A stretch of DNA of 61,468 nucleotides from positions 1 through 61,468 of the IMG/VR virus record IMGVR_UViG_3300027708_000078; one strand, 5' to 3'. Below, in pieces: positions 2,782-22,241 of the stretch. A program made the translations under genes and the position numbers. The stretch's first letter is position 1. Every line of letters begins with the position of its first letter. This DNA is from a virus. Below the pieces are notes generated by a model that did no database searches, was not told the DNA's origin, and saw only the letters and a list, made by a program, of their open reading frames with translations.

Positions 2782-2793
2782 AATAATTAATTT

Positions 2794-6029: not shown

Positions 6030-7298
6030 ATGAGCAAAATTTTTATACAAATTGCATCTTATAGAGACCCGCAATTAGTACCAACAATCAAAGATATGTT
6101 GGCAAATGCGAAAAAACCAAAAAATTTAGTTTTCAGTATTGCAAGACAATACTCGGAAACAGATGGTTTTGATAATTTAGATGAGTGGAGAAATGATAAG
6201 AGATTTAAAATATTAGACATTCCTTATCAAGAGGCCAAAGGAGTTTGTTGGGCGAGAAATCTGACACAACAACTTTATGATGGCGAGGAATATACACTTC
6301 AAATTGATTCTCATATGAGAACTGTTAAAGATTGGGATGATATTCTAATTAAGATGGTTAAGGGTCTTCAAAAGGATGGTTATCCTAAACCTTTACTTAC
6401 GGGTTATGTTCCATCCTTTGACCCTGACAACGACCCTCAAGCAAGAGCTCAAGAGCCTTGGAGAATGGTGTTTGATAGATTTATTCCTGAAGGTGCGGTA
6501 TTCTTTTTACCTGAAACAATTCCAGGTTGGAAAGATGTTAAAAAACCTGTTACATCAAGATTTTATTCTGCCCACTTCTGTTTTACGTTAGGACAATTCT
6601 CAACAGAAGTTCAACACAATCCTGAATATTATTTCCACGGAGAAGAAATTTCAATCGCAGCAAGAGCATATACTTGGGGTTATGATTTATTCCATCCTCA
6701 TATTCCTGTATTTTTCCACGAATACACTCGTAAGGGTAGAACAAAACAATGGGATGACGATAAAGATTGGGGTAAGAAAAATTCAATCTCACATCTAACA
6801 AATAGAAAATTATTTGGTATGGATGGGGAGACTCAGGAAGGCCACGATGGTCAATATGGTTTTGGTGCGATTAGAACACTTAGAGATTATGAAATCTATT
6901 CAGGATTATTATTTAGTGAAAGAGCAATTCAGCAGTGGACAATAGATAAAAATTATCCTCCAAATCCTTATGAATTTAATAATGAACAGGAATGGAAAGA
7001 TAGTTTTGCAAAAATATACAAACACTGTATTGATGTTGGGTACACTCAAGTTCCTGAAAAAGATTATGATTTTTGGGTTGTTGCATTTCACGGAGAAGAT
7101 GATGAGACTTTATTCAGAAAAGATTCTGACAAAAATGAAATTGATTCTTACTTCAGAGACCCTGACGGATATTGTAAAGTTTGGAGAGAATTTCAAACAA
7201 CACATATGCCAAAATATTGGGTGGTATGGCCTCACTCAGAATCAAAAGGGTGGTGTGAAAGAATCACAGGTCAACTAAACCATAACATTATTAGTTAA
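6030..7298 (+). CDS. GT60-like (Skp1-type) GlcNAc-transferase
   Basis: A 422-residue protein with the hallmarks of the glycosyltransferase (GlcNAc) family that includes Dictyostelium Skp1 GnT1. These are FIQIASYRDPQ at residues 5-15, GVCWARN at 71-77 and the metal/nucleotide-sugar motif LQIDSHMR at 90-97 (D93-x-H95). A further HGEE/HFCF region lies in the middle. In eukaryotes this family transfers GlcNAc from UDP-GlcNAc to hydroxyproline on Skp1; bacterial and viral members are largely uncharacterised. It is the first gene after a terminator and heads the glycan block. Family confidence is good; donor and acceptor in this phage are unknown. Confidence 0.75.
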   Translation: MSKIFIQIASYRDPQLVPTIKDMLANAKKPKNLVFSIARQYSETDGFDNLDEWRNDKRFKILDIPYQEAKGVCWARNLTQQLYDGEEYTLQIDSHMRTVKDWDDILIKMVKGLQKDGYPKPLLTGYVPSFDPDNDPQARAQEPWRMVFDRFIPEGAVFFLPETIPGWKDVKKPVTSRFYSAHFCFTLGQFSTEVQHNPEYYFHGEEISIAARAYTWGYDLFHPHIPVFFHEYTRKGRTKQWDDDKDWGKKNSISHLTNRKLFGMDGETQEGHDGQYGFGAIRTLRDYEIYSGLLFSERAIQQWTIDKNYPPNPYEFNNEQEWKDSFAKIYKHCIDVGYTQVPEKDYDFWVVAFHGEDDETLFRKDSDKNEIDSYFRDPDGYCKVWREFQTTHMPKYWVVWPHSESKGWCERITGQLNHNIIS

Positions 7299-7301
7299 CA
7301 A

Positions 7302-8027
7302 ATGGTTACTTGGGATGGTGTTAAAATTGCGGATAGTGGATTTTTAATTAATCTTGAAGAAAGAAAAGATAGGTTAGAGGAATCTTTAAAAGAATTTGAC
7401 AAGAATAATATTGTTGGTGTTGAGAGATTTAAAGCGGTCAAAATTACCGAAGATAGTGAGTTAGGTTGGAAAATAAGAGGGTGTACTCATAGTCATTTGG
7501 AAATTTTAAAAAAACAAGTTGAAAATAATTTTGAAAAAGTAATAATCTTTGAAGATGACTTTTTCTTAGACGTTTGTCAACAAGAAAAATTTGAAATTTC
7601 AGATGATGTTATAAAAAAATTATTTGAATCAAATTTTGATTTGCTTTTTTTAGGTTCTACTTTATTGGAAAAATCAGAACGATATAATGATTTTTTAATA
7701 AAGCCTAACAAATTTGTTCAAGCAACGGTGTATATTACTTCTTTAAAATTTGCAAAATTTGTAATTAATCATTTTAATTATTTGGATAAAAATTCGGTGG
7801 TTTACGGAGAACAGATAGACAGTTATTATAGTTTTTTAGCGACAAAAAACCATTGGAGAATGAACACAAATTTGAAAGGGATAAAAGAACTTTTGGAGCA
7901 TAATTTAAAAATTTATTTTCACTATCCAATACTTTTTAATCAAAGAATGGGGTTTTCTAATATTGAAAATAGATTTACATCTTATTGTGGGTTTAATAAA
8001 TTACAAAATATAAAAAATTATCCTTAA
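7302..8027 (+). CDS. GT25-family glycosyltransferase
   Basis: The 241-residue protein begins with INLEERKDRLEESLKEF, continues with ERFKAVKITED, then GCTHSHLEILKK, and has the acidic motif VIIFEDDFFLD near residues 84-94. This order (INLxxRxxR, Gxxx SHxxxx, FEDDxx) is that of the GT25 family, which includes LPS galactosyltransferases and collagen galactosyltransferases. A later YGEQIDSYYSF segment also fits. It starts 3 nt after the GT60-like gene, so the two are co-expressed. Collagen-type GT25 enzymes modify hydroxylysine in proteins, so a protein acceptor is possible but not shown. Confidence 0.75.
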   Translation: MVTWDGVKIADSGFLINLEERKDRLEESLKEFDKNNIVGVERFKAVKITEDSELGWKIRGCTHSHLEILKKQVENNFEKVIIFEDDFFLDVCQQEKFEISDDVIKKLFESNFDLLFLGSTLLEKSERYNDFLIKPNKFVQATVYITSLKFAKFVINHFNYLDKNSVVYGEQIDSYYSFLATKNHWRMNTNLKGIKELLEHNLKIYFHYPILFNQRMGFSNIENRFTSYCGFNKLQNIKNYP

Positions 8028-8048
8028 AAGGGATTAGAGAAATTTAAA

Positions 8049-8585
8049 ATGACATTAACCGAAATAGCAAATAAAATAGGTACTGACAAAGGAAATCAAA
8101 ATTTTGAATCCCACTCATATACTGAAATATATGAAAAATACTTTCAAGATATAAAAAATAACCCAATTAAACTTTTAGAAATTGGTGTTTATGACCCAAG
8201 ATTTCCGGGTGCGTCAATACAATTATGGAAAACTTTTTTTTCTGATTTAAAATTAATTGGTTTTGACATCAATCAAGACTCTAAAAAATTTGAAACAAAT
8301 GGTGTTAGTATTTTTATTGGTGACCAAAGTTCTAAAGAAGATTTAAATAAATGTATTGAAACCTATGGTGGTGAATATGACATTATAATTGATGATGGTT
8401 TACATAAACATTCTCATCATATAATAAGTTTTGAAACTCTTATTTCACATTTAAAAAAGGGGGGGTATTATATTATTGAGGACTTACACGCATATGATTG
8501 TTATTTAACAATCGAATGGTTTAAGGAAAATAATTTACCGTATAAATTATATTGTAATAATAAATTATTAATTTATGAAAAATAA
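8049..8585 (+). CDS. Class I SAM-dependent O-methyltransferase-like protein
   Basis: 178 residues. Near the start IANKIGTDKG, then HSYTEIYEKYF, the SAM-binding motif I LLEIGVYDP (about residues 39-47), IGFDIN (motif II acid) and YDIIIDDGLHKH are visible. The IGTDKG...Y...LEIGV...DDG..H pattern is that of the macrolide/sugar O-methyltransferases such as demethylmacrocin O-methyltransferase and related hydroxylase-like proteins. Probably methylates a sugar made by the neighbouring transferases, capping the glycan. The 3' end overlaps the next gene by 11 nt. Confidence 0.7.
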   Translation: MTLTEIANKIGTDKGNQNFESHSYTEIYEKYFQDIKNNPIKLLEIGVYDPRFPGASIQLWKTFFSDLKLIGFDINQDSKKFETNGVSIFIGDQSSKEDLNKCIETYGGEYDIIIDDGLHKHSHHIISFETLISHLKKGGYYIIEDLHAYDCYLTIEWFKENNLPYKLYCNNKLLIYEK

Positions 8586-9330
8586 TTTTGACATAGGAAT
8601 AACAACATTTTCATTAAGATATGATTTTGTTGAGAAATTAATTAATAAAATTAGGGAATTAAATATTCCTAATAATATCTTTTTATGTATAAACGGAGAA
8701 AAAGATTCTAATTTTAACGAGGAATATAGAAAAAAAATATTAACGTTGTGTTCATCTCAACCAAATGTATTTCCAATTTTTTTTGTAGAAATGAGGGGGT
8801 TATCCAAAATGTGGAATACATTACTAATACATTCAACTAAAGATGATATTTTATTATTAAATGATGATATTGAGTTAGTTAATGAAAATATGTTTGAGGT
8901 TGTTTCTAATCATATTGAATCTAATGAATATTACGGAATATCTAAAATCAATGGTACCTTTTCATTTTTTGTTGTCAATAAAAATCTTATAGACGAATTA
9001 GGTTATTTTGATGAAAGATTATTAGGGTTTGGCGAAGAAGACGGTGATATAACATATAGAATGTTAGAAAATAGAAATAAAGATGTATATCAATTATATG
9101 TTCAAGGAGTTTATAATATTGTGTCGGACATTAGACACGAACACGTAAAACCTGGCGTGGGTAAATATTCGTTTTTCAACAGAAATTTTACATTTAATTC
9201 TAAATACAATTGTAATAACCCAAAGAGTAATATTTCGGGGATGTTTGGAATGCCTTGTGATAGAGTATTACCTGATATCAATTTATACCCATATGAGAAA
9301 TTTTTTAAAGAAAACAAAAATAATCTATGA
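8575..9330 (+). CDS. GT2-like glycosyltransferase
   Basis: 251 residues with a GT-A fold signature: FDIGITTFSLRYDFVEKLI at the start, DDILLLNDDIELV (acidic metal site, about residues 82-94) and GYFDERLLGFGEEDGDITYRM, the acceptor/base region typical of GT2 and GT7-like enzymes. The ATG lies inside the methyltransferase 3' end (11-nt overlap), suggesting translational coupling. Substrate cannot be read from sequence. Confidence 0.65.
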   Translation: MKNNFDIGITTFSLRYDFVEKLINKIRELNIPNNIFLCINGEKDSNFNEEYRKKILTLCSSQPNVFPIFFVEMRGLSKMWNTLLIHSTKDDILLLNDDIELVNENMFEVVSNHIESNEYYGISKINGTFSFFVVNKNLIDELGYFDERLLGFGEEDGDITYRMLENRNKDVYQLYVQGVYNIVSDIRHEHVKPGVGKYSFFNRNFTFNSKYNCNNPKSNISGMFGMPCDRVLPDINLYPYEKFFKENKNNL

Positions 9331-9923
9331 TACATTTTATTACTCCATTATACAGATATAATAATATTAAGATTATTTATTCGGCAATTAAAAATCAAGT
9401 AACTGATTTTAACTGGCATTTAATTGAAGGTTCAAATAAAATTGGTGAAGAATCTTTAGATTTTTTAAAATCCGATGAAAGAGTTAAATTTTATAAAATT
9501 GATACTTTCCATCTTTGGGGTCACGAACAAAGAAATTATTTTATTTCTGACATAAAATGTGAAGATAATGATTGGTGTTATTTTTTAGATGATGATAATG
9601 TGGTTACTTGGGATTTAATTAAAACGTATAATGAAGAAAAAGAGACTGATGTTGATTTAGTTTTATTTTCTCAAAAGCAAGGATTAACTGAAAAAGATAG
9701 ATTATGGGGTTATGAAGATAGATTAAGATTAGGTGGTTGTGATATTGGTTCATTTATAATTAGATATAGATTAATTAAAAAAACTTTAATCCCCAATATT
9801 GAATGGAGAAATGCTGATGGTCATTATGCAGAACAAATAAATGGTTTTAGAAATCAACATACTTTTAAATTTTACAGTGATAGATATGTTAGGTATAACT
9901 CACTTTCGTTAGAAATATATTAA
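9327..9923 (+). CDS. Small GT-A type glycosyltransferase
   Basis: 198 residues starting MIHFITPLYRYNNIKII and containing WCYFLDDDNVVTWDLI (DDDN acidic motif at about residues 88-91) and a LWGYEDRLRLGGCDIG loop. This fits a compact GT2-type catalytic domain without accessory domains. It overlaps the upstream gene by an ATGA junction (9327-9330), typical of coupled translation. Confidence 0.6.
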   Translation: MIHFITPLYRYNNIKIIYSAIKNQVTDFNWHLIEGSNKIGEESLDFLKSDERVKFYKIDTFHLWGHEQRNYFISDIKCEDNDWCYFLDDDNVVTWDLIKTYNEEKETDVDLVLFSQKQGLTEKDRLWGYEDRLRLGGCDIGSFIIRYRLIKKTLIPNIEWRNADGHYAEQINGFRNQHTFKFYSDRYVRYNSLSLEIY

Positions 9924-9926
9924 ACT

Positions 9927-10898
9927 ATGGTTAAAATTAAGCTTGAATGTTGGTGGACAGATACTTCCTCATTAAATGCAAGAATGATAAGACAATTTGT
10001 TTCGGATGAAGATTTAAAACATTTTTCTTTAGTGAATGAAAATCCTGATTATACAATTGTTTTTGGAAGGACTGATTGGGATAAAATAGAGACTCCAAAA
10101 GAAAAAACTTTTTATATTTCACAAGAACCTTTGTGGTCCCCCAACCAACCAAAAGACGGTATACATAATTACTGTTCAAAAATTTTGATTTCAGATAAAA
10201 GAGATTATCCCGATAGAAATGAATATATTGAAACATTATTACCAATGTTTTATGGAGGTAGTGGGGAAAGTGATAGTAGAGAAGAGTGGGATTGGTCTTT
10301 AAAAATTAAAGACAAAGAGTACATAAAAAATAAACCAATCTCAATTATTGTAAGAAGAGATGGCTCAGTACATTATAATCATTTATCTAATCCAAATACT
10401 TCCGAAATAAATTACCCAAAAAGAACTAATTTAGGCGTAAAATTATCTGAAAATGAAAAAATAGATGTTTTTGGAATTCATTGGATAAATAATGGTAAAA
10501 ATATTAAAGGTGATGTTTGGAATAAGCACGTAGGGTTAGATGAATATTTTTTTTCCGTTGCTTGTGAAAACTCAATACAAAAAAATTATATAAGTGAAAA
10601 ATTTTGGGATACAATATTAACAGAATCAATACCGATATATTTGGGGTGTTCAAATATTACGGATTACATACCATCAAATTGTTTTATCAATTTAAACGGT
10701 ATGACTATTGAAGAAATGGTTAAAACAATTGATGATGTCATTTACAATTATTTAGATTATTATAATTTTTACATAAATAACATTAAAAACTTAAAACAAG
10801 ATTTTTTTAAAAATCCAAAATTTAATTTGTGGGAAAGAATAAAATACGAAATAGAATCTAATGAAAAAAATATTATTAACAATGAAATTTTGGACTGA
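9927..10898 (+). CDS. GT10 alpha-1,3/4-fucosyltransferase-like
   Basis: 323 residues. The C-terminal half shows the GT10 fucosyltransferase motif: FSVACENSIQKNYISEKFWD, then ESIPIYLGCSNITDYIPSN and CFINLN. This corresponds to the family pattern FxxxFENxxxxDYITEKxxxAxxxxxVPVxxGxxxxxxxxPxxSFI. An upstream TFYISQEPLWSPN segment also fits. The expected reaction is transfer of L-fucose from GDP-fucose to GlcNAc/Gal on a growing glycan. Its presence implies access to host GDP-fucose. The 3' end overlaps the next gene by 38 nt. Confidence 0.75.
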   Translation: MVKIKLECWWTDTSSLNARMIRQFVSDEDLKHFSLVNENPDYTIVFGRTDWDKIETPKEKTFYISQEPLWSPNQPKDGIHNYCSKILISDKRDYPDRNEYIETLLPMFYGGSGESDSREEWDWSLKIKDKEYIKNKPISIIVRRDGSVHYNHLSNPNTSEINYPKRTNLGVKLSENEKIDVFGIHWINNGKNIKGDVWNKHVGLDEYFFSVACENSIQKNYISEKFWDTILTESIPIYLGCSNITDYIPSNCFINLNGMTIEEMVKTIDDVIYNYLDYYNFYINNIKNLKQDFFKNPKFNLWERIKYEIESNEKNIINNEILD

Positions 10899-11583
10899 TG
10901 GTCAAGAAAATTCAACAAGAGTCAGAAATGTAAGTTATACTTGGGAAAAATTAAAAATTTTAAAAAATTTTTTATTAGAAAAAAACATAGACTGTGTTGC
11001 CCATTTATATGATTTTTCACCCGAAAAAATATTAGAAGAATCAATTCATATACCATTTGAATTAGGTTCATATATGAAATCCTCAAAAACAAACAAGATA
11101 ATTGAGTCTAATTTAGATTGTGATTTTATGTTTATGTTTGATTGTGACGCATTTTTTCTTGAGGATGATTTTAATTATTTATGTGAATTAATTAAGAACT
11201 TAGAATCTGGTGATTTTGTTACTTTTGATTTGGCAAAATTAGAAGAAGATGATACGGTATCTGTAATTAAAAATGATTTTGTTGATAAGAATTTTAATTG
11301 GTCATATGCATATTCAGGTAATAAAAATAATGGTCCGTTATGTTGCGGACATAGAGGAGGTTTGGGTGGTGTATATATTTGCGATTTAAATCTTTTAAGA
11401 GACTTAGGAGGATTTAATGAAAAATACGTTGGGTGGGGAGGAGAAGATGGGGATATGATTGACAGAATTACAAGCTCTAATAAAAAATATAGACAAATAC
11501 CAATAAATAAAATAGTACCTTTTCATTTATCACATTTTTATGATTGGTCAAGTGAGAAATATAGTAAAAGATTTAATAGTTAA
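10861..11583 (+). CDS. GT7/galactosyltransferase-like protein
   Basis: 240 residues. FMFMFDCDAFFLEDDF carries the DxD metal motif (about residues 90-95), and LGGFNEKYVGWGGEDGDMIDR near residue 183-203 is the classic C-terminal galactosyltransferase motif (GGFNExYxGWGxEDxD). This supports a beta-1,4-galactosyl/GalNAc-transferase-type fold. The ATG is 38 nt inside the fucosyltransferase gene and the N-terminus MKKILLTMKFW looks like a normal first beta-strand, so the overlap is accepted. Confidence 0.7.
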   Translation: MKKILLTMKFWTDGQENSTRVRNVSYTWEKLKILKNFLLEKNIDCVAHLYDFSPEKILEESIHIPFELGSYMKSSKTNKIIESNLDCDFMFMFDCDAFFLEDDFNYLCELIKNLESGDFVTFDLAKLEEDDTVSVIKNDFVDKNFNWSYAYSGNKNNGPLCCGHRGGLGGVYICDLNLLRDLGGFNEKYVGWGGEDGDMIDRITSSNKKYRQIPINKIVPFHLSHFYDWSSEKYSKRFNS

Positions 11584-11586
11584 AAA

Positions 11587-12483
11587 ATGAATAAAAAAAT
11601 AAAATTTATTACTGCAATATATTCTAATTTACACGGGACTGAGATTGGCGGTAGGCCAAGTAGGGGGGGTCATTATAAATGGAGTTTATTATCATTATTA
11701 AAAATGACTGATTCGGATTTTATTTGTTACACATCTGAGGAAGAGTTTGATGATTTATATAATTTTTTTCATATCGAAAATAATGTAGATACTGATAAAT
11801 TACAATTAGTAAAATATAATTTATCCGAGCATTATTTCTTAGAATTATTTAAAAAATATAAAGATATTGAAGGTGCAAAAAGAGGTGACAGGTGTATTGA
11901 AATACAATATATGAAATATATTTGGTTTTTATCTGAAGATATGTCATATGATTATTATTTTTGGATTGATGCAGGATTATCTCATTGTGGTTTAATCCCG
12001 AATAAATATTTAACTGCGGGAGGCCCTCATAATAAGGGATATTATGAAAGTCCGTTATTTAACAATACATTTTTAGATAACTTAATAAAAAACACTGAGG
12101 ATAAATTTACAATAATTGGAAAAGAAAATGATAGGAATTATTGGTCAGGAACCGTAGACCCAAAACATTTTTTTAATTATAATAGAAGCTATCATATAAT
12201 AGGAGGTTTATTCGGAGGAAAAAAAGAATTGTGGAATAATATGTTAGAACTGTTCAAAAAATATGTTTATCAAGTTACAGAAGAAGACGGTAGATTATAT
12301 CACGAAGAAGATATAATGACATTGATTTTTAGAAATCACGAAGATATGTTTAAAATGTATGATTTTGACATTTGGTGGCACGAAAACGAAAGAATTCCTG
12401 GTATTGATAATATGGTTGACTACATCAGTACAAGGAAAAGTTTTTATAAAATTTTAGAAGAATTAAACGGAATTTATGAGTAA
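11587..12483 (+). CDS. HtrL/YibB-like putative glycosyltransferase
   Basis: 298 residues. The first strand KIKFITAIYSNL, the central YYFWIDAGLSHCGLIPNKYL and a later IIGGLFGGKKELWNNM match the HtrL/YibB (WlaTC-type) family, associated with LPS and capsule loci and thought to be GT-A type transferases. It begins 3 nt after the previous gene. Function in the glycan block is inferred from family and position only. Confidence 0.65.
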   Translation: MNKKIKFITAIYSNLHGTEIGGRPSRGGHYKWSLLSLLKMTDSDFICYTSEEEFDDLYNFFHIENNVDTDKLQLVKYNLSEHYFLELFKKYKDIEGAKRGDRCIEIQYMKYIWFLSEDMSYDYYFWIDAGLSHCGLIPNKYLTAGGPHNKGYYESPLFNNTFLDNLIKNTEDKFTIIGKENDRNYWSGTVDPKHFFNYNRSYHIIGGLFGGKKELWNNMLELFKKYVYQVTEEDGRLYHEEDIMTLIFRNHEDMFKMYDFDIWWHENERIPGIDNMVDYISTRKSFYKILEELNGIYE

Positions 12484-14149
12484 AATAACATTAGTAACAG
12501 GTTTATGGGATTTAGGTAGAGGTAATTTGAATGAAGGTTGGAGCCGTTCGTTTGAACAATATTTGGATAAATTCAAACAACTTTTACAAGTTGATGAGAA
12601 TATTATAATATTTGGAGATGAAGAGCTTGCTTCTTTTGTTAAAGAACATAGAGCATCTGAAAATACTCAATTTATTTTAAGACCATTAGATTGGTTCAAA
12701 AATAATGATTATTACCCCTTAATTCAAGACATCAGAAATAATCCTGATTGGTATAATCAGGTAGGTTGGTTGACAGATTCAACTCAAGCGAAACTTGAAA
12801 TGTATAATCCATTGGTTATGTCTAAAATGTTTTTATTGCACGACGCCAAGATTATAGATAGATTTAATTCTGAATATATGTTTTGGATTGATGCGGGTTT
12901 GACAAATACAATCCACCCTGGATATTTTACTCACGACAAAGTTTTAGATAGATTAGAAAAATATATTTCAAAATTTTCTTTTATTTGTTTTCCATATGAC
13001 GCAAACACAGAAATACACGGATTCGAATATAATAAATTAAATTCAATTGCAGGTGATAAAGTTAATAAAGTATCGAGAGGAGGATTTTTTGGTGGACCAA
13101 AAGAATCAATCTCTAATATGAATTCAATATATTATGGGTTGTTATTATCTACATTACGGGAAGGTTATATGGGTACAGAAGAAAGTATTTTCACTATAAT
13201 GACATATAAACATTCGGATTTAATAAATTATTTTGAAATTGAAGGTAACGGATTGATGGGTAAATTTTTTGAAGATTTAAAAAATGATAGTTTAAAAGTT
13301 AAATCCGAAAGTAAAATATCTGTAGAAAACACGTTGGACACAAATAAAGTTGGTCTTTATGTTTTAACATTTAACAGTCCAAATCAATTTAGAACTTTAA
13401 TTAAATCGATGTTGGAATATGATAAAGATTTTATTTTAAAAACTACAAAATTTTTATTAGATAACTCTACAGATGAGACAACATTTAATGAATATTCAGA
13501 ACTTTGTAATGAACACGGATTTGAACACATTAAAAAAGATAATTTAGGTATTTGTGGTGGTAGACAATGGATTGCGGAACATTTTGATAAGACTGATTTA
13601 GACTATTATATTTTTAGTGAGGACGATATGTTCTTTCAACATAAACCAAACGAAACTTGTAGAAATGGTTTTAACAGATACTCACCAAATTTATTTTCAA
13701 ATACTTTACAAATAATTAAAAAAGAAAATTTAGATTTTATAAAATATAATTTTAGTGAATTTTATGGAGATAATAGTACTCAATGGTCGTGGTATAACGT
13801 ACCACAATCCGTTAGAGAACAATTTTGGCCTGAAAAAACTAAGTTACCCCAAATAGGATTAGACCCCAACGCACCTAAAACCAAATTCAATAATATTAAA
13901 ATTCATAATGGTTTACCTTATGCTGATGGTGAAATATACTACTGTAATTGGACTCAATTAATTAGTAGGACGGGAAATAAAAAAATGTTTTTAGATATTA
14001 CTTGGGCTCATCCTTTTGAAAATACGTGGATGTCTCATATGTATCAATTAACTAAGAAGGATGAGTTAAAAGGCGGGTTGTTATTACTTACTCCAGTTGA
14101 ACACAATAGATTTGACCATTATGATGGAAAGTTAAGAAAAGAATCATAA
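12476..14149 (+). CDS. Two-domain glycosyltransferase (HtrL/YibB-like + GT2-like)
   Basis: 557 residues with two catalytic modules. Residues ~1-260 repeat the HtrL pattern of the upstream gene (ITLVTGLWDLGRGN, MFWIDAGLTNTIHPGYF, GGFFGGPKESISNM). Residues ~290-557 form a GT2-like domain (VGLYVLTFNSPNQFRTLIKS, YYIFSEDDMFFQ with the EDD acid cluster, YCNWTQLISR). The joint is a short linker around residue 275-290. A natural fusion of two transferases suggests two consecutive sugar additions. It overlaps the upstream gene by 8 nt and ends the block. Confidence 0.65.
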   Translation: MSKITLVTGLWDLGRGNLNEGWSRSFEQYLDKFKQLLQVDENIIIFGDEELASFVKEHRASENTQFILRPLDWFKNNDYYPLIQDIRNNPDWYNQVGWLTDSTQAKLEMYNPLVMSKMFLLHDAKIIDRFNSEYMFWIDAGLTNTIHPGYFTHDKVLDRLEKYISKFSFICFPYDANTEIHGFEYNKLNSIAGDKVNKVSRGGFFGGPKESISNMNSIYYGLLLSTLREGYMGTEESIFTIMTYKHSDLINYFEIEGNGLMGKFFEDLKNDSLKVKSESKISVENTLDTNKVGLYVLTFNSPNQFRTLIKSMLEYDKDFILKTTKFLLDNSTDETTFNEYSELCNEHGFEHIKKDNLGICGGRQWIAEHFDKTDLDYYIFSEDDMFFQHKPNETCRNGFNRYSPNLFSNTLQIIKKENLDFIKYNFSEFYGDNSTQWSWYNVPQSVREQFWPEKTKLPQIGLDPNAPKTKFNNIKIHNGLPYADGEIYYCNWTQLISRTGNKKMFLDITWAHPFENTWMSHMYQLTKKDELKGGLLLLTPVEHNRFDHYDGKLRKES

Positions 14150-14154
14150 CAATA

Positions 14155-14161
14155 TATTTAT
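14155..14161 (+). promoter_or_regulatory. TATTTAT motif, 4 nt before ATG
   Basis: TATTTAT, then TGTT, then ATG at 14166. One of seven sites with 4-5 nt spacing, where a transcript starting after a -10-like box would have almost no leader. Confidence 0.5.
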
Positions 14162-14165
14162 TGTT

Positions 14166-16085
14166 ATGGAATTTTTTATCAAGAGTGGTGCAAATCTACC
14201 GGCACTTAAAATGCAGGTTATCTCTGACGGACGAAGCGATTTTAAGTCAGTAATAGAAAGTTTAGAGCAATCAAAAGTATTTTTATCTATGGTAGATGTT
14301 ACCACAGGTATAAATAAGATTGCATTAGCACCTTGCGATATTATAACTGAAACAAATCCTGACGGAACTTTAAATTATTTTATTTATTATAAGTTCACCA
14401 CAAAAAATACCAACAAGCCAGGTAGATACAAAGTAGAATTTTTCATACAAAATGTGGAAGGTAATTTAAATTTACCAATTAAAGATACGTTATTTGTTAA
14501 CGTTCAAGAATCTTTTGTTAGTATTGCAAATTGTTGTCCTGATAATACAAGAATAAGATTAAGATTATCGGCATACATTAGTTCTGGTTCTATTAACATT
14601 TTATATGTTTTAGAATCAAATAAAGAACTTCCTGTTGGATTTACATTAAATTTCACAAATACATATGATGTTTTTACGGGTCCTCCTATAGTTGTTTCAA
14701 CGGGTGTTACAATTAGTGCTGGTACTAAGTATGGTGAAACAAATGTTTATTTATCTTCTGAAGATTTTAATAATTTAAAAAGTATTGGTAATTTTTCAAA
14801 TCTAACATTTAATCCAAGTTATATTTCAAATATTTTTGATTTAACGGAACAATCATTTTTTGTTACGGCAACTCCTACTCCTACACCTAGTATTACTCCA
14901 ACATTAACATCTACTCCAACACCAACACCAACTCAAACTGAAGAGGTAATTACAGACGCAATTTTAACTACGGATATTGGTTTAATTTCAGTTGGTCTTG
15001 GATTCTACTTAAAATTTGTGGACTTTGAGCCAGAACAAAATATAACGGACGCAATATTAACAAATGATGGTGAATATATTTTGGTTGGAACCGATATGTA
15101 CTTGAGTTTTATTGACCCAACCCCAAATCCAACTCCAACTCAAACACCCACACAATCTAATACACCTACAAATACTTCTACTAATATTCCTATTAATACT
15201 CCTACACCAACTCCCACACCAACTCAAACAGAACAAGTTATAATTGATGCAATATTAACAAATGATGGTAATTATATTCAAGTTGGGAATGAAATATATT
15301 TAAAATATATTAACCCCACACCTCCACCAACACCAACCCAAACACCTACCAATACTCAAACACCCACAAATACACCTACTCCAAGTATAACTCCAACATT
15401 TACTCCAACCAATACTAAAACTCCAACACCTACACCAACAATAGCATCAATAGTTACAGATGGATTAGTGTTGTATTATGATTTTAGTAATCCTTTTAGT
15501 TATTCGGGAAGTGGAGTTAATATAATTGATTTATCACCTTCTAATAATAATGGAATTGTTGTAAATGATTATGTACATATATCTTATGTTAATTCAGGCA
15601 ACACTAGTTATTTTAATTGGGATAGTAACTCAGGTGGTAGTGGAGGAAATTCATTTGGCGGTAGTATACACACAAGTTCAGCAAATACTTATCAAGATTT
15701 TACTATGGTGTTTCAACCTGACTTTTTGGTGGGTGGAATGGCTGGTTTATTTAGTATTCCAAATGATAAAAGTTTAAGGGTTTATGGTAATGGTTGGGGA
15801 TTTCCAAATCCAGGTAATAACGATGATTGGGCAAGTTCATCAGCAACAAACTTCTATATAAATGGACAAGTAAGTAATCAAGCGGTGTCAGGATGGAATA
15901 TTATGGGTGGAGCAACAACCAATAGTAATTTTGCGGGACTTACCCAATTATACGTCGGTACTAGTGGATATCAAGATAGAAATATGCAAGGTAAGATTGC
16001 ATTAGTATTAATGTATAATAGAGCTTTAACAGGTCAAGAACAAATACAAAACTACAATTTCCTTAAAACTAGGTTTGGATTATGA
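14166..16085 (+). CDS. Baseplate/fibre protein with Thr/Pro stalks and LamG-like lectin domain
   Basis: 639 residues. The N-terminal ~235 residues (MEFFIKSGANLPALKMQVISD...) resemble the immunoglobulin-like attachment domain of phage upper baseplate proteins. Three Thr/Pro stalks (about 238-260, 318-356, 383-430) alternate with three copies of a ~27-residue unit (ITDAILTNDGEYILVGTDMY-type). The C-terminal ~210 residues look like a concanavalin A/LamG-like lectin: DGLVLYYDFSNPF, VNIIDLSPSNNNG, and the terminal LMYNRALTGQEQIQNYNFLK. The likely role is sugar binding at the host surface. The stalks are candidate acceptors for the upstream glycosyltransferases. Confidence 0.7.
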   Translation: MEFFIKSGANLPALKMQVISDGRSDFKSVIESLEQSKVFLSMVDVTTGINKIALAPCDIITETNPDGTLNYFIYYKFTTKNTNKPGRYKVEFFIQNVEGNLNLPIKDTLFVNVQESFVSIANCCPDNTRIRLRLSAYISSGSINILYVLESNKELPVGFTLNFTNTYDVFTGPPIVVSTGVTISAGTKYGETNVYLSSEDFNNLKSIGNFSNLTFNPSYISNIFDLTEQSFFVTATPTPTPSITPTLTSTPTPTPTQTEEVITDAILTTDIGLISVGLGFYLKFVDFEPEQNITDAILTNDGEYILVGTDMYLSFIDPTPNPTPTQTPTQSNTPTNTSTNIPINTPTPTPTPTQTEQVIIDAILTNDGNYIQVGNEIYLKYINPTPPPTPTQTPTNTQTPTNTPTPSITPTFTPTNTKTPTPTPTIASIVTDGLVLYYDFSNPFSYSGSGVNIIDLSPSNNNGIVVNDYVHISYVNSGNTSYFNWDSNSGGSGGNSFGGSIHTSSANTYQDFTMVFQPDFLVGGMAGLFSIPNDKSLRVYGNGWGFPNPGNNDDWASSSATNFYINGQVSNQAVSGWNIMGGATTNSNFAGLTQLYVGTSGYQDRNMQGKIALVLMYNRALTGQEQIQNYNFLKTRFGL

Positions 16086-16118
16086 TAATAAAAAAGTAAA
16101 TAATAAAATAATAAGAGA

Positions 16119-16125
16119 TATTTAT
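16119..16125 (+). promoter_or_regulatory. TATTTAT motif
   Basis: GATATTTATA 17 nt upstream of the ATG at 16143, in a 57-nt intergenic gap. Confidence 0.45.
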
Positions 16126-16142
16126 ATAAAAAAAGAAAAATT

Positions 16143-19100
16143 ATGTTAACAGGAAAAACAATAGGACAATTAACTTATTTGGAAACACCGACACCGGATA
16201 CTTTAATACCCGTAGAATTAAACGGTGCAACATATCATATTGACTTCTCCGCAATTACTTCTGGAGGATTTATTGAAGTGACTTACTCTGAACTTGTAGA
16301 TAAAATCACGGGTGAAACATTAACAAAAGGTATTCATTATATCATAACAGATTTTAAAACTTGTTATGATGTTCCCGAATATTATTATAATGGTAATCCA
16401 AAAGATAATGGTGTGATTGATTATATGCAAGGTAATGTTGAACCAATTATTGTTTTATCAACAAGCTCAAATACAATTAGTTCAACCGCGTATCAACAAG
16501 CATATCCAAATGATAGAATCCAATATGATTGGACTTTTAGTGCAACTGAAATAACTCAAGGTGTTGCGTATGGTAGAATTTCTGAAAGAATTGATGAATA
16601 TAACAATAGAACCGATTATGACCACAGAAATATCTATTTTAGTAGATTTCAATCATATAATAAGGGTTCTCAATTAACAGGAACTATAGGTAGTTATGAT
16701 AGTGCAACTGGTATAATATCAGGTAATAGTACATTATTTTTATCAGAAGTTTCAATTGGTGATATATTATTTTTTGAATATCAGGGTTATATGGTTGGTG
16801 TTAGGGTTTTTAGTGCTAGTACTAATACTTTAATATATGTTATTGTTGACCCATCATTTGGAAGTCAAGTAAACTTTACAGGAGGACTTATTCCTTTTTA
16901 TAGCTCAACATCAACAGGTGATTATAACGAATATAAAGAAGTATATATTGGACAAAAAATTGAGGAGGACTTTCAAAGAATCCTAACTTTTAATTTAAAC
17001 GGGACTGCGGTACATAACTATGTTGGTGATTATTCTAAATTTTATCTTGAAGACAATGTCAGTACCCCTATATTTTTATTAGCAAACAACGTGTTTTTTG
17101 GTAGTAACACTTACTCAAACACAATCGGTGATTTGTCTTATAATAATACCGCAACATATTCCTTTTCAAATAATAAAATATCCAATCAATTTTATAATAA
17201 TACAATTCATCAGAATGGTTTTTATAGCAATAATATTGGTCTATTATTTAACAATAATATTGTTTATGGTGAATTATGGAGTAATACAATTGAAGAAAAC
17301 TTTAATTCTAACATAATTTATTCTGAATTTTATGATAATCAAATAGGTTTAAATTTTGAAGAAAATACTATCGGTGACAATAGGAATTTAGGTAATTTTA
17401 ATTTTTATAGAAACAAAATAGGAAATGATTTTCGATATAATATCATTAGACAAAATTTCCAAAATAACCAAATTGGTAATCAATTTAACAATAACTTCGC
17501 TAATGGTAATTTTTATAAAAATGTTATTGGAAACGGATTTAATTATAACCGTAATATTGGGTATGATTTTTATGGTAACCACATTGGTAATGGGTTTAAT
17601 AATAATGAATTAATTGGAGATTATTTTCACGACAATCAAATCGGTGAATATTTTGAATATAATAGTATTTCATATAAATTTAATAATAACCAAATTGGTA
17701 ATATTTTTGAAAATAATACTTTAGGTGACACTCAATATTTTAATTGGAATAATACAAGTATTGAAAATTTAACGGCAAGAACTTATAACACATTTTATAA
17801 TTCATTATATGGTGATGGTGGACAAAACGTTGGTAATGTTATTTTAGGTAAGGAACTTATAATGCATTTTTATCGTGATTCAGGTACAACATTAACAAGT
17901 GGTTATTTGGTGGTTGGTGAGACATATGAAATAACAAACGTAGCGTTTGGCGGTGGTGATTTCAGTAATGTCGCCGATGTTCAAAGCGGAACTATTAATC
18001 AAAATGGTTGTATTTTCATCGCAACAGGAACTACACCAAGTAGTTGGTGTGGAATAACAGTAACCGAATTAACCGTTTATAATGAATATCACAAAGTTAA
18101 ATTCACACAATGGACTCAAGGTGGTAATGGTGGTGGTTTTTCGTATGAGAGAACAAAGGTATATCCGACATCGGAACCAACTTTTTATTTTACAAAATTA
18201 AATTACCAAGATATAATTGATATAGTTGTTCCTAGTCGTCTTGAAATAACCAGAAATAATAATGGGGCGATTTATAATGATGTAATAGAAAATGGATGGA
18301 ATCAAAACGTTTCGCCTGAAGGAACTCAATGGAACTCAATTTATACTCAACAATATAATGGTAGTAATTTTAAATATAATACAATTGTCAATGAATTTAA
18401 GGGTAACTATATTCGTGGCGATTTTCAATTAAATTCAATTGAGTCGTATGTTGGTACTAATCAATTTTCTGGTGATACATATCAGAATAAAATTGGTTCG
18501 TATACCTTTGGTAATGACTTTTTGGGTTATATGTTTAATAACTCGTGGATGGGTAGTTTTGATAATAATACCTTTGGATATAATTTAAATGCCAACACAT
18601 TTGGTTCGTCAATTAGCAATAACACAATTGGTTATGATTTCATTAATAATGAAATTAAATCTGATTTTGATAATAATACAATTGGTAATGGTTTTCAAAC
18701 TAATCAAATTGGTAGTAGTTTTACTAACAATACTATTGATGATAATTTTGGTTATGGGGTTTCATACCCACAAGGAAATAAAATAGGTAATAATTTTTAT
18801 AACAATACTGTTGGTGAATATTTCTACAATAACTCTATCCCTGATAATTTTATAGATAACACAATTGATAATTATTTCCAATGGAATATTGTTAACACAG
18901 CAATTAGTGGTGTTTGTTTAAGTACTGGTGCGTTATATCATAATACAACAGTTAATGTATTTAAAAATAAAAATGGTGATAATAGATTATCATATTATGA
19001 TGAATCTGATGTTCTAACAGTAGAAACATTAAATGAAGCGCCTTGTTTAAGTGGATTAAATGCGTTAGATATACCAGAAAATGATTTAAATTTTGGATTG

Positions 19101-19574
19101 GTGTTAAATTCCTCATTTACAGTATATTCTACAGATATTGTAAGTTATGGACAAGGAACTAATATAACGGCAAATGGAACAAGTGGGTTTGATTCAGGTC
19201 CATCTCAAACAGGTGTCGGTAATCAAGAGTATATTATTCAGGATAATATGAGTCAAAGATTAAAAGATGAAATACTTGGTTTATTTATTAGTGAAGGTTT
19301 ATCAACAAATAGTACGGGATATGTCTTTGATGTTACTTGGGGACCAGGTAGTACAATTACAAATGGTAAAGCGATGATAGGTTATTATTGGAATGGTGGA
19401 ACAAATTATGGTAATATACAACTTTCTCCTATTAGTACCGCCAATAATGATTGGATGACATCAGGACAAAATATGTTCACATCACCATTAGCGGCAGTTG
19501 GGACATTTAATTTTCCTGCAACATTTACTTTGTATAAACCAATAATTTCAAACCCAAGCAATTGGTATTGTTAA
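16143..19574 (+). CDS. Large tail spike/fibre with Asn-rich nonapeptide beta-solenoid repeats
   Basis: 1143 residues. Residues 1-~310 contain short beta modules (LTGKTIGQLTYLETPTPDTL, TKGIHYIITDFKTCYDV, DYDHRNIYFSRFQSY) seen in fibres of Bacteroidota phages. Two long blocks (about 318-535 and 735-915) repeat a nine-residue unit N-x-I-G-x-x-F-x-N (for example NQIGEYFEY, NSISYKFNN, NQIGNIFEN, NTLGD). Between them lies a module with GCIFIATGTTPSSW that also occurs in the protein at 22263. The last ~200 residues form a non-repetitive cap. The period, aliphatic/Phe positions and Asn ladder suggest a parallel beta-solenoid; function is probably host contact. Confidence 0.65.
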   Translation: MLTGKTIGQLTYLETPTPDTLIPVELNGATYHIDFSAITSGGFIEVTYSELVDKITGETLTKGIHYIITDFKTCYDVPEYYYNGNPKDNGVIDYMQGNVEPIIVLSTSSNTISSTAYQQAYPNDRIQYDWTFSATEITQGVAYGRISERIDEYNNRTDYDHRNIYFSRFQSYNKGSQLTGTIGSYDSATGIISGNSTLFLSEVSIGDILFFEYQGYMVGVRVFSASTNTLIYVIVDPSFGSQVNFTGGLIPFYSSTSTGDYNEYKEVYIGQKIEEDFQRILTFNLNGTAVHNYVGDYSKFYLEDNVSTPIFLLANNVFFGSNTYSNTIGDLSYNNTATYSFSNNKISNQFYNNTIHQNGFYSNNIGLLFNNNIVYGELWSNTIEENFNSNIIYSEFYDNQIGLNFEENTIGDNRNLGNFNFYRNKIGNDFRYNIIRQNFQNNQIGNQFNNNFANGNFYKNVIGNGFNYNRNIGYDFYGNHIGNGFNNNELIGDYFHDNQIGEYFEYNSISYKFNNNQIGNIFENNTLGDTQYFNWNNTSIENLTARTYNTFYNSLYGDGGQNVGNVILGKELIMHFYRDSGTTLTSGYLVVGETYEITNVAFGGGDFSNVADVQSGTINQNGCIFIATGTTPSSWCGITVTELTVYNEYHKVKFTQWTQGGNGGGFSYERTKVYPTSEPTFYFTKLNYQDIIDIVVPSRLEITRNNNGAIYNDVIENGWNQNVSPEGTQWNSIYTQQYNGSNFKYNTIVNEFKGNYIRGDFQLNSIESYVGTNQFSGDTYQNKIGSYTFGNDFLGYMFNNSWMGSFDNNTFGYNLNANTFGSSISNNTIGYDFINNEIKSDFDNNTIGNGFQTNQIGSSFTNNTIDDNFGYGVSYPQGNKIGNNFYNNTVGEYFYNNSIPDNFIDNTIDNYFQWNIVNTAISGVCLSTGALYHNTTVNVFKNKNGDNRLSYYDESDVLTVETLNEAPCLSGLNALDIPENDLNFGLVLNSSFTVYSTDIVSYGQGTNITANGTSGFDSGPSQTGVGNQEYIIQDNMSQRLKDEILGLFISEGLSTNSTGYVFDVTWGPGSTITNGKAMIGYYWNGGTNYGNIQLSPISTANNDWMTSGQNMFTSPLAAVGTFNFPATFTLYKPIISNPSNWYC
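17096..17750 (+). repeat. Nonapeptide-encoding repeat block 1
   Basis: About 22 degenerate copies of a 27-nt unit encoding N-x-I-G-x-x-F-x-N. The DNA is diverged (AT-rich wobble) while the protein pattern is kept, so selection acts on the protein. Confidence 0.75.
18350..18885 (+). repeat. Nonapeptide-encoding repeat block 2
   Basis: A second run of the 27-nt unit, with best-preserved copies NTFGYNLNA, NTFGSSISN, NTIGYDFIN, NEIKSDFDN, NTIGNGFQT, NQIGSSFTN. It is separated from block 1 by about 200 non-repeat residues. Confidence 0.75.
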
Positions 19575-19578
19575 TAAA

Positions 19579-20250: not shown

Positions 20251-20272
20251 ATAAAAATAAAAAAATAAAAAA

Positions 20273-21349
20273 ATGATACAAGGAATTAGATTAACAAGTT
20301 CAAATTTATCAGGTAAAACAGCTGATGTAATTTTCAACCCCTCAACAGGTGGTACAATTAATTTAGGTACACAAACCATACCATTTAACAATATTAGTGA
20401 TTACCCATACGGTACTTATGAATTATCAGTTGTGGAATATGATAGAACATATGAAATAAATGTACCTGCACCATTAGATGGACAAAGTGCTTACACTCTT
20501 ACTGTGAGAGGTGTAACAGTAGATGGCGGCGTTCAACCATTTTCAGGCGCGGTATTATCTGAAGTATGGGGAACATATACAACACAATATATTACAGATG
20601 AAGGTATACCATCAACAGATATTGTTTATGCTCAAGGTATTTGTTCTGATGATGTTGATGCCCCAAAAGTACAAGCAAATATTGGTGGATGGCCAAATAG
20701 TATTAATTCATTTTTAGGACCATTTCAATCGGGTGGTTTGGCTGGATATCCATTTGTCGGTAGTGTTGGTTTTGGAGCATTTGCAAGTCACGTAGCAACA
20801 ACATCTGGTGGAACCTTATTTGTTACAAGTATGCCACATATTGGTGTTACTGAAGAAGGTAGTTCAGGTAGAATGTTACGTAGAGGTAAAGCCGATAGTA
20901 CAAACGATAATACTTGTGGTGCAGTATGGGGAGCAATTAACCAAGTTGTAAATGTATTAAGTGCACCCCCAAGTCAAAGTAATCCGCCATTTGATAATGG
21001 TAATTATTCTTTTTGGAAATTAACAGATATTTTATGGCCGTATAAATCAACCTTAACAGGTTTTACAGGTACTGCCGAACAAATATATAACAAACAAATG
21101 ATATTTGCAACAGAAACTATTAGGGATTCTGCATATGATTATATAATAGCGAATTTACCAGGTGCAACCGAAGCAAACACAGAAAATGATGTGTATTTTT
21201 TAAGTGGTATTTTTATTAATAGTGATGTTAGTGCGGGTACAACACAATATGAATCTTATGTTGTTGTTGATAAAGTTATGAAATATGTGTTTGAGGACCA
21301 ATGGTATGATATAACAGATAATTATAAGGCAGGATTACCAATTGACTAA
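20273..21349 (+). CDS. LCIB-like beta-carbonic anhydrase domain protein
   Basis: 358 residues. Residues 1-~85 are a beta-rich module (IRLTSSNLSGKTADVIF, PYGTYELSVVEYDRTYEI) resembling structural add-on domains. From ~95 onward the sequence follows the LCIB/LCIC carbonic anhydrase family: GICSDDVDAP (C124, D126), GGLAGYPFVGSVGFGAFASH (154-173), MPHIGV (H189), RMLRRGKAD (R203/R204) and NTCGAVWGA (C215). The Cys-His-Cys zinc site and Asp/Arg pair are the known catalytic set of this family (CO2 + H2O to bicarbonate). The family is best known from algae. I rely on motif memory, so confidence is moderate. Confidence 0.65.
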   Translation: MIQGIRLTSSNLSGKTADVIFNPSTGGTINLGTQTIPFNNISDYPYGTYELSVVEYDRTYEINVPAPLDGQSAYTLTVRGVTVDGGVQPFSGAVLSEVWGTYTTQYITDEGIPSTDIVYAQGICSDDVDAPKVQANIGGWPNSINSFLGPFQSGGLAGYPFVGSVGFGAFASHVATTSGGTLFVTSMPHIGVTEEGSSGRMLRRGKADSTNDNTCGAVWGAINQVVNVLSAPPSQSNPPFDNGNYSFWKLTDILWPYKSTLTGFTGTAEQIYNKQMIFATETIRDSAYDYIIANLPGATEANTENDVYFLSGIFINSDVSAGTTQYESYVVVDKVMKYVFEDQWYDITDNYKAGLPID

Positions 21350-21367
21350 AATTAAAAAATAACAATT

Positions 21368-21634
21368 ATGAGAATTTGTATATTATGTGAAGAATCAAAG
21401 GTTCTTCAAGCAAGAGAAAAAATGAAAAATAATAATATCTTAAAAATAGATTTATCGCCAACTGGAGAATTGCCTGCAACACATAAATTATGTGTTATGG
21501 CAGTTACCGAAGAAAAGGCCAAACAACTTATGGATTCTGCCGAATTAACAATAATTGAGGCGATGAACCCAAGTGAATTTTTAACAAAACATAATCTAAA
21601 AAAAATCGGTAAATACGGATTTGGAAACTTGTAA
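21368..21634 (+). CDS. Hypothetical protein, 88 aa
   Basis: Starts MRICILCEESK and is a soluble, mixed alpha/beta-looking protein with no recognised motif. One N-terminal CxxC (C4, C7) is present. It overlaps the downstream oxygenase gene by 14 nt, so the two are probably coupled. Two short motifs, LPATHKLCVMAVTEEKA and GKYGFGNL, might help a profile search. Confidence 0.55.
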   Translation: MRICILCEESKVLQAREKMKNNNILKIDLSPTGELPATHKLCVMAVTEEKAKQLMDSAELTIIEAMNPSEFLTKHNLKKIGKYGFGNL

Positions 21635-22241
21635 GATAAAAAAAAATTTCATCACACAAGATGAGGCAAACCAAATAGTAAATTGGTTAGATTCTGTTAA
21701 TCATACAGGTAGTGATAGTAATCACCATCTTACAGAATTATCTAAATCTCTAAATGGTGTATCTTATATGTTTGATATTTCAAACACACCTTTAACAAAT
21801 TATATTACAAAATTCCAATCAATATCTGATGTATCAAAAGAGGGTTTGCCCTCTTTTATTTTTAACATAATAGATAGAATATCAGAAGAATTTAATTTTC
21901 CAAAAGATAATGTTTTTCTTCAAGCTGTTGATATGAATAAAGGAGGAAAAATAAATCCCCATTATGACGCATCAATAGATGGATATGTTAATTATAAGTG
22001 TAATATTAGTGTATTATCAGAAGATTATGATTTTTATGTGGATAAAGATTCAGTTAAAATACAAAAAACTGATTTATACGGATTTGAGGCGTCTTTATAC
22101 AAACATTGGACAAACGAATTTAATTCAAGAAGAGTTTTTTTAAGTTTTGGGTTTTTATTAAAATATGAAGATGTGGGTAGAGATATGAATGACCCAAGAG
22201 TTAGGTTAAGTAAAAGAATTGAGAAATACTTTCAAAAATAA
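21621..22241 (+). CDS. 2-oxoglutarate/Fe(II)-dependent oxygenase (prolyl-hydroxylase-like fold)
   Basis: 206 residues from a TTG start at 21621; no in-frame ATG exists before residue 50 and the N-terminus IKKNFITQDEANQIVNWLDS is a normal family start. The iron triad is INPHYDAS (H114, D116) and H162 in LYKHW, followed 8-9 residues later by R170/R171 in RRVFLSFGF, the usual 2-oxoglutarate anchor. This is the pattern of the prolyl 4-hydroxylase-type superfamily. Substrate is unknown; hydroxylation of Pro in the phage's Thr/Pro stalks is an attractive possibility given the GT60-like enzyme nearby. Confidence 0.65.
   Translation: METCKIKKNFITQDEANQIVNWLDSVNHTGSDSNHHLTELSKSLNGVSYMFDISNTPLTNYITKFQSISDVSKEGLPSFIFNIIDRISEEFNFPKDNVFLQAVDMNKGGKINPHYDASIDGYVNYKCNISVLSEDYDFYVDKDSVKIQKTDLYGFEASLYKHWTNEFNSRRVFLSFGFLLKYEDVGRDMNDPRVRLSKRIEKYFQK

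Follow-up and report, generated by a model that had tools for sequence, protein, structure and literature searches.

Two kinds of protein glycosylation known from protists begin with glycosyltransferases of family GT60. The family includes Gnt1, which acts on a hydroxyproline of Skp1 and is followed by PgtA, a second enzyme that combines GT74 with GT2 (excerpted text of PMC6939170). It also includes protist enzymes that start mucin-type O-glycans, and for Dictyostelium there is evidence of fucose caps (excerpted text of PMC8724618). Here we describe a gene cluster headed by a GT60 enzyme in a virus, IMG/VR record IMGVR_UViG_3300027708_000078; the whole stretch analysed, positions 1 to 61,468 of that record, is called the window. 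It is part of the genome of a T4-like myophage and has about 31% G+C except in its first 4 kb. Nine open reading frames (ORFs, named here by their start positions) fill positions 6030 to 14149 and are flanked by two genes for proteins with Thr/Pro-rich segments. An earlier note on this DNA had proposed that the phage encodes a Skp1-like glycosylation pathway aimed at these segments, and all ORFs that it named are present where it placed them. Judged from the family and modelled fold of the enzyme, from its conserved putative catalytic motif and from the adjacency and co-occurrence of genes, the locus probably encodes mucin-type O-glycosylation of the phage’s own Thr/Pro stalk proteins.

The GT60 enzyme and the stalk proteins

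The first ORF of the cluster (6030..7298, + strand) encodes a polypeptide N-acetylhexosamine (HexNAc)-transferase-like enzyme, the proposed initiator. Its assignment to GT60, suggested in the earlier note by eye, is borne out by a match to PF11397 with an E value of 5.7e-64 and 217.2 bits against a cut-off of 21. An AlphaFold model of the product, made with 20 aligned sequences, has a mean predicted local distance difference test (pLDDT) score of 89.9. When this model was compared with the PDB, ranks 1–26 of the Foldseek search were all polypeptide N-acetylgalactosamine (GalNAc)-transferases, as were ranks 1–29 of the VIA-align search (Z = 22.3–19.1, root-mean-square deviation (r.m.s.d.) = 3.4–3.9, 261–282 residues). 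The next VIA-align row is a bacterial glycosyltransferase (Z = 17.9), and polysaccharide synthases come after it. Superposition with GalNAc-T2 (Z = 22.3, r.m.s.d. = 3.4, 275 aligned residues) places the model in the GT-A fold, and several of the top structures carry bound mucin peptides, going by their titles. Identity to the GalNAc-transferases in these alignments is 10–14%, and the aligned region is mainly that of residues 1 to 330; a sequence search of the PDB with the GT60 query returned nothing. Asp93 and His95 are invariant, and Ser94 nearly so, in 40 aligned GT60 sequences down to 29% identity, and we take D93/H95 to be the DxH metal site of GT27 and GT60. The solved enzymes nearest to the modelled protein act on polypeptides, a likeness of fold that does not by itself imply the activity of 6030.

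The proposed acceptors are the products of the two flanking genes. Stalk protein 1 (4167..5951, + strand) consists of an anchor-like N-terminal domain of ~66 residues, a Thr/Pro stalk formed by one 93-residue segment (40% Thr, 27% Pro), and PKD-like and DUF285 domains. Stalk protein 2 (14166..16085, + strand) has an N-terminal domain of ~124 residues, three Thr/Pro segments of 34, 44 and 55 residues (36% Thr, 24% Pro) and a weakly LamG-like C-terminus. The mucin-like stalks described in the earlier note are thus present in both proteins, and synonymous codons are mixed within their segments. The stalk proteins are modular: the ~66-residue N-terminus of 4167 is matched in other loci, also as stand-alone proteins of 69–71 residues, and the N-terminal 124 residues of 14166 correspond to a stand-alone protein of 125–126 residues in relatives. 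We infer that both proteins are displayed on the virion.

A further gene of the window touches on these modules. ORF 20273 (20273–21349) encodes an LCIB-type carbonic anhydrase (PF18599, 9.8e-30) which, because its N-terminal ~64 residues are common to Thr/Pro stalk proteins of relatives, may by its sequence be a carbonic anhydrase displayed on the virion. Full-length copies, 80–89% identical, occur in ten loci that were selected through the oxygenase gene 21621 of the window. As a part of the glycosylation module it was rejected, since 71 of 95 alignments span only the N-terminal ~64 residues (in loci of the GT60, oxygenase and pol types, pol being the family-B DNA polymerase gene at 23865, so labelled from a reading of the sequence).

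Linkage of GT60 genes to stalk genes

A scan of IMG/VR with one query returned 361 relatives of the GT60 enzyme, and the best 80 of the 361 make up the GT60 loci analysed here. An ORF counted as a stalk gene if it contained a 40-residue stretch with at least 50% Thr plus Pro, at least 20% Thr and at least 15% Pro. The nearest such gene lies less than 200 bp from GT60 in 65 of these loci and less than 1 kb away in another 6, which makes 71/80 within 1 kb. For the remaining nine, the distance is less than 5 kb in two and at least 5 kb in one, and no stalk gene is seen in six, in all of which the contig ends less than 1 kb upstream of GT60. Counted over non-overlapping ORFs, 64 of 80 GT60 genes fall within 200 bp of a stalk gene, compared with none of 76 pol genes, 1 of 81 YibB genes and 73 of 512 unlabelled ORFs. 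Exceptions apart, dense Thr/Pro candidate acceptor domains are encoded alongside the proposed initiating enzyme, as a mucin-type system would require.

The arrangement was also followed in loci chosen by other means. Of the 39 pol-selected loci that contain GT60, whose upstream flank extends no further than 10 kb from pol, 25 have a stalk gene within 1 kb and 14 show none. Of twenty other GT60 genes (32–79% identity), taken from GT60-positive records of several sets, some of them selected for stalks, 12 are within 1 kb of a stalk gene and 14 within 5 kb. In record G101, GT60 (at 180 kb) is remote from pol (near 122 kb) and still has a stalk gene 85 bp away.

Co-occurrence was assessed at the level of whole records with a DNA motif for TPTxTPT. 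A first set held 45 records of at least 69 kb, 34 chosen via the oxygenase and 11 via pol; these large contigs are a selection from 160 loci that does not take in all the large ones. The stalk motif was found in all 26 GT60-positive records of this set and in 6 of the 19 GT60-negative ones (Fisher’s test, 4e-7). Four records with stalks and without GT60 look cut, namely G004, G005 (by comparison with G006), G013 (by comparison with G024) and G041, which ends just upstream of the YibB gene; leaving them out, a choice made after the result had been seen, changes the value from 4e-7 to 6e-9. A second set held 25 sister-clade records of at least 60 kb, chosen by pol alone. Over the 67 different records of the two sets, the motif occurs in 32/32 GT60-positive and 17/35 GT60-negative records (p = 5e-7, kinship not corrected), with a median of 24.7 and 0 matches per 100 kb, respectively; the near-identical pairs G024/G025, G027/G028 and G031/G034 were counted separately. 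The HtrL_YibB domain follows the same pattern (17 of 21 GT60-positive records, 1 of 19 GT60-negative ones), and the single GT60-negative record that carries it ends before the expected place of GT60.

The association extends beyond the main clade. The jumbo phages XacN1 and RAS14 have a GT60 enzyme (~44–46% identity), a relative of 11587 and a YibB/glycosyltransferase fusion in one cluster, and, within ~10 kb of it, a giant protein that carries a Thr/Pro segment close to its C-terminus. Fifteen records, comprising XacN1, RAS14, the bacterium Jiulongibacter sediminis and the 12 behind 17 loci matched by the XacN1 enzyme, contain the stalk motif in 13 cases, and the two without it are pieces of 29 and 40 kb. 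By proteomics, XacN1 is reported to have at least two virion glycoproteins, possibly made by the phage’s own transferases (excerpted text of PMC5852040). ORF334, one of the two transferases named there, is the relative of the window’s GT60. On a more distant viral contig (L380/L381), a stalk gene stands directly before GT60 (37–38% identical to the two queries), with no YibB. In a sample taken by stalks (37 records among the matches listed, at least 80 loci), GT60 was present in 12, compared with 3 of 50,697 phage records by tblastn, a count from a different collection and method.

Similar loci occur in bacteria. A Thr/Pro protein sits between two GT60 genes in J. sediminis (locus L383, 4949–15151), with a carbamoyltransferase and an FkbM–YibB fusion beside them, and 5/5 stalk-motif matches in the 4.5 Mb genome fall within this one Thr/Pro gene. 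Across the 390 genomes of its order (J. sediminis among them), PF11397 is matched in 7, strongly in 3; bacterium G422 (C1:1784988–1789100) repeats the order of a stalk gene between two GT60 genes. The stalk motif has few matches in the remaining bacterial genomes of this order, at levels that mostly resemble those of the reversed control; G144 gives 23 versus 11. Going by their sequences, the loci in J. sediminis and G422 are possible bacterial mucin-type systems. Both Thr/Pro proteins have, by eye, a Tat-like N-terminus.

Composition of the cluster and a proposed mechanism

All enzymes between GT60 and stalk gene 14166 lie on the + strand. A GT25-like glycosyltransferase (7302..8027) exceeds the Pfam cut-off (PF01755, 3.2e-11). 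It is followed by the methyltransferase that the earlier note had recognized (8049..8585; phrog_21658, 1e-20, below the cut-off in Pfam), by a weak GT2-like enzyme (8575..9330; Pfam 4e-4, below cut-off; phrog_29879, 5e-6) and by a protein of the variable cassette (9327..9923) with no match in Pfam, PHROGs or NCBIfam. The GT10 fucosyltransferase-like enzyme (9927..10898; PF00852, 3.4e-14) and the GT7-C-like galactosyltransferase (10861..11583; PF02709, 1.1e-10), both named before from the letters alone, are over their Pfam cut-offs. ORF 11587 (11587..12483), without a match in Pfam, PHROGs or NCBIfam, is YibB-like, with 30% identity over 149 columns (2e-6) to the YibB part of its neighbour 12476. 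The latter (12476..14149) joins an HtrL_YibB domain (PF09612, 9.8e-18), whose function Pfam gives as unknown, to a C-terminal glycosyltransferase-like part (phrog_842, 2.7e-4, weak). In the NCBIfam scan YibB alone was matched, below its cut-off. The earlier count of eight glycosyltransferases was therefore generous: five have profile support, one of these being YibB, one or two more are likely, and one is unknown.

Not all of these genes are kept. Among the 80 GT60 loci, the YibB/glycosyltransferase fusion is matched in 80, 11587 in 70 and the GT25-like enzyme in 63, compared with 5 each for the methyltransferase, the GT2-like enzyme and 9327, 6 for GT7 and 10 for GT10; other loci have unmatched ORFs at the place of this variable cassette. 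A constant frame around an exchangeable middle would be expected for a glycan with varying outer sugars.

For transcription, a Rho-independent terminator-like hairpin (5974..6000, + strand) lies between stalk gene 4167 and GT60, and 23 of 24 sampled relatives have a hairpin followed by a T-run at this junction. A single transcript for 4167 and GT60 is unlikely given this conserved hairpin, and the enzyme genes probably begin a new transcript at GT60, from which point to 14166 the ORF spacing leaves no comparable gap. Searches for regulatory sites were uninformative for the T4-type late promoter TATAAATA (16 matches versus 16.2 expected) and gave 132 promoter-like sites versus 136 expected and, in all, 9 terminator-like sites versus 6.4 expected.

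We infer the sugar, the site and the benefit of the stalk glycan as follows. The GT60 enzyme would transfer an α-linked HexNAc, most likely N-acetylglucosamine (GlcNAc) from UDP-GlcNAc, directly to stalk Thr residues, and prolyl hydroxylation would not be needed. The acceptors would be displayed proteins such as 4167 and 14166, and their modification would take place inside the infected cell, ahead of assembly or in its course. The first sugar would then be extended or capped by the conserved protein 12476, usually together with the adjacent 11587, and the swappable set (here GT25, methyltransferase, GT2-like, GT10 and GT7) would add phage-specific outer sugars. Such a glycan would make the stalks stiffer, protect them against proteases and alter what host or grazer surfaces see. 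A broader proposal, to which we give somewhat less than even credence, is that phages, like a small number of bacteria, possess their own mucin system. In it, GT60 would start O-glycans on modular stalks whose displayed domains (adhesin, lectin or enzyme) are interchangeable, and the cassette between GT60 and the YibB/glycosyltransferase gene would vary the glycan from phage to phage, like the swaps at bacterial capsule loci.

Several observations weigh against mucin-type glycosylation of the stalks. Adjacency is partly accounted for by shared synteny, since the 80 loci are close relatives (80–93% identity), and other ORFs stand equally near stalk genes, with matches to 20273 and to 16143 within 200 bp in 9/9 and 5/5 cases. 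It loosens beyond the main clade: of the 13 oxygenase-selected loci with GT60, only 5 have a stalk gene within 1 kb (6 more within 5 kb), and in 6 of the 20 diverse GT60 loci none is found within ~5 kb in the stretch seen. In bacterium G404, which has a GT60 gene, the 3.6 kb seen hold no stalk, and the lone motif match of the genome lies far off. The hairpin probably keeps 4167 and GT60 off one transcript. At the level of records, the second set gives 8/8 against 11/17, which alone is not significant (p = 0.13). The earlier note had named stalks equally frequent in relatives without the enzymes as grounds for abandoning its idea; the frequencies are unequal, strongly so in the first set and not significantly in the second by itself. 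All Fisher values overstate independence because the records are related, and most records are fragments. Stalks occur without GT60, as in G022 (217 kb) and G023 (211 kb; loci L218 and L228), which have many Thr/Pro stalks, no GT60 and no HtrL_YibB, and have 1 and 5 GT2-type matches of their own, respectively. Of the 37 records sampled by their stalks, 25 lack GT60; together with G022 and G023 they rule out that a stalk implies GT60, and stalks therefore do not need it. Four of 21 GT60-positive records lack YibB. XacN1 also carries a GT9, and its glycoproteins are unnamed in the excerpted text of PMC5852040. Finally, the GT25, GT10, GT2 and methyltransferase genes could serve another glycan.

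Other features of the window lie apart from the cluster. The product of a tail sheath gene (32910) matches T4-like sheaths, and a RecA-like protein is encoded at 56217, labelled from a reading of the sequence. A further GT2 glycosyltransferase (PF00535, 8.8e-16) is found at 54093–54791. A pirin (PF02678 and PF17954, 19579–20250) lies among structural-looking phage genes, and three tandem glycine-rich proteins (801–3789; PF21722 in the two scanned) are encoded in a stretch of 43–47% G+C, above the rest of the window.

Alternative explanations and known systems

The alternative that survives best, itself unlikely, is that the enzymes act on lipid-linked sugars or on the lipopolysaccharide or capsule of the host, for instance to keep competitors out, and stand beside stalk genes because both occupy a shared variable region. 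GT25, GT10 and GT2-like enzymes and methyltransferases are common in surface-glycan synthesis; all are present in the cluster, and its middle cassette is strongly variable among phages. Against this, the fold of 6030 is nearest to polypeptide transferases, and GT60 keeps a stalk neighbour far from pol (G101), in the distant viral contig and in two bacteria.

It is less probable still that GT60 glycosylates another virion protein, such as capsid, tail tube or baseplate, with an indirect link to stalks. Glycosylation of phage capsids and tail tubes exists in mycobacteriophages (Freeman 2023, cited in the excerpted text of PMC12619734), and the unnamed glycoproteins of XacN1 (excerpted text of PMC5852040) would be compatible with it. 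The distribution of stalks speaks against it: the motif is present in all 32 GT60-positive records and missing from 18 of 35 GT60-negative ones, with the medians given above.

The Skp1-like route of the earlier note, in which 21621 would hydroxylate stalk prolines and GT60 would add GlcNAc to the hydroxyproline, is very unlikely as an account of this locus. ORF 21621 (21621..22241, + strand) encodes a 2-oxoglutarate/Fe(II) oxygenase-like protein whose triad, as had been read from the sequence, is conserved, with H114, D116, H162, R170 and R171 invariant in 32 aligned sequences. It has no credible match in Pfam or PHROG, and a PDB sequence search gave one chance match; its model (pLDDT 88.6) holds the HxD...H triad and a basic residue in a double-stranded β-helix. 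VIA-align scores ALKBH6 at Z = 14.2, an algal prolyl 4-hydroxylase (P4H) with a (Ser-Pro)5 peptide at 13.4, the PBCV-1 enzyme vCPH at 13.2 and PHD2 at 12.8, and among the first 50 Foldseek matches there is no P4H and almost every one is an AlkB homologue. The modelled fold thus fits AlkB homologues and prolyl hydroxylases about equally and gives no verdict between them. Of the two comparisons with solved structures that had been suggested, the one for 6030 led to polypeptide GalNAc-transferases and the one for 21621 to no preference for prolyl hydroxylases.

The company of the oxygenase is decisive here. It travels with 16143 (16143..19574, + strand), an Asn-rich repeat protein, and with an 88-residue ORF that overlaps its start (21368..21634, + strand). 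Among the 59 of 80 oxygenase loci with at least 4 kb upstream, 57 have a 16143 match upstream and 54 an abutting ORF of 70–95 residues, and the trio also travels together in phages without stalks or GT60. Both larger proteins were therefore placed outside the glycosylation module, and hydroxyproline is not the general mechanism. Only 1 of 34 GT60-positive records of at least 100 kb chosen via GT60 or pol carries a 21621-type oxygenase, namely the closest relative, and none of the 80 GT60 loci does (flanks up to 10 kb); 13 records have the oxygenase with neither GT60 nor the stalk motif. The complete genomes of XacN1 and RAS14, with GT60 and stalks, contain neither this oxygenase nor PF13640, the two oxygenase types searched for. 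Some evidence points the other way: GT60 includes the hydroxyproline-acting Gnt1 (excerpted text of PMC6939170), 16 of 34 oxygenase-selected records carry GT60, so that within part of the group the two frequently share a genome, and PF13640 oxygenases occur in 13/26 GT60-positive and 0/10 GT60-negative records, so that a different oxygenase could act in some phages. An oxygenase could act in part of the GT60 group; as a guess, 21621 may modify the Asn-rich repeats of 16143. Nor does the fucosyltransferase match a Skp1-like step, the second Skp1 enzyme being GT74 plus GT2 and the window’s GT10; no GT74-named match was among the Pfam results for the cluster, and whether Pfam has a GT74 model was unchecked. 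A mucin-type reading fits better, because GT60 also holds enzymes acting on mucin-type domains (excerpted text of PMC8724618). The part of the earlier proposal that stands is a phage-encoded pathway aimed at Thr/Pro stalks, which co-occurrence favours; its Skp1-like hydroxyproline route is not supported.

Glycosylation of modified bases in phage DNA is the least probable reading: DNA hypermodification by phage glycosyltransferases has precedent (cited in the excerpted text of PMC12619734) and the C-terminal part of 12476 weakly matches phrog_842, a beta-glucosyl-HMC-alpha-glucosyltransferase (2.7e-4), but GT60 fold and family indicate protein acceptors, the genes are linked to stalks, and GT60 plus YibB/glycosyltransferase also occur in a bacterial genome.

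If the stalks are glycosylated as proposed, mucin-type O-glycosylation, known from animals and protists, would also act on the fibres of tailed phages, and the system would be common among uncultured phages, to go by the 361 GT60 relatives that one query found in IMG/VR. The widespread gene set of PF11397 and HtrL_YibB would gain a function, the odd Thr/Pro stalks of large phages would be explained, and a small mucin-type system would be at hand that is testable in E. coli. Were the cassette swappable as well, virions would diversify by glycan type. A literature search returned no work joining PF11397 and phages, and among the papers listed by wider searches none concerns glycosylation of phage Thr/Pro stalks by its title or abstract start, with subscription journals mostly outside their reach.

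Mycobacteriophages glycosylate their virions with enzyme families other than those of the window. Their virion proteins carry glycans on capsid and tail-tube C-termini, whereas here Thr/Pro stalks are the proposed site (Freeman 2023, cited in the excerpted text of PMC12619734). The animal and apicomplexan GT27 polypeptide GalNAc-transferases have the closest solved folds to 6030, but at 10–14% identity. Chlorella virus PBCV-1 is a eukaryotic virus in which the capsid protein Vp54 is glycosylated by a pathway other than the window’s. Its own transferases glycosylate its structural protein, as we propose here (cited in the excerpted text of PMC5852040). The Skp1 system of Dictyostelium and Toxoplasma shares with the window a first transferase, Gnt1, of family GT60 (excerpted text of PMC6939170), but here no prolyl hydroxylase is coupled to it, GT10 takes the place of GT74, and the acceptor would be a repetitive stalk instead of Skp1. 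The protist GT60 α-GlcNAc-transferases of T. cruzi and of the mucin type in Dictyostelium belong to the same Pfam family as 6030 and likewise have Thr/Pro-rich acceptor candidates; such mucin-type enzymes differ from GT27 mainly in having no ricin-like domain (excerpted text of PMC8724618). Compared with them, the window’s enzyme, known here from sequence and model, is encoded by phages and a few bacteria, goes with YibB-type proteins and would act on a virion fibre.

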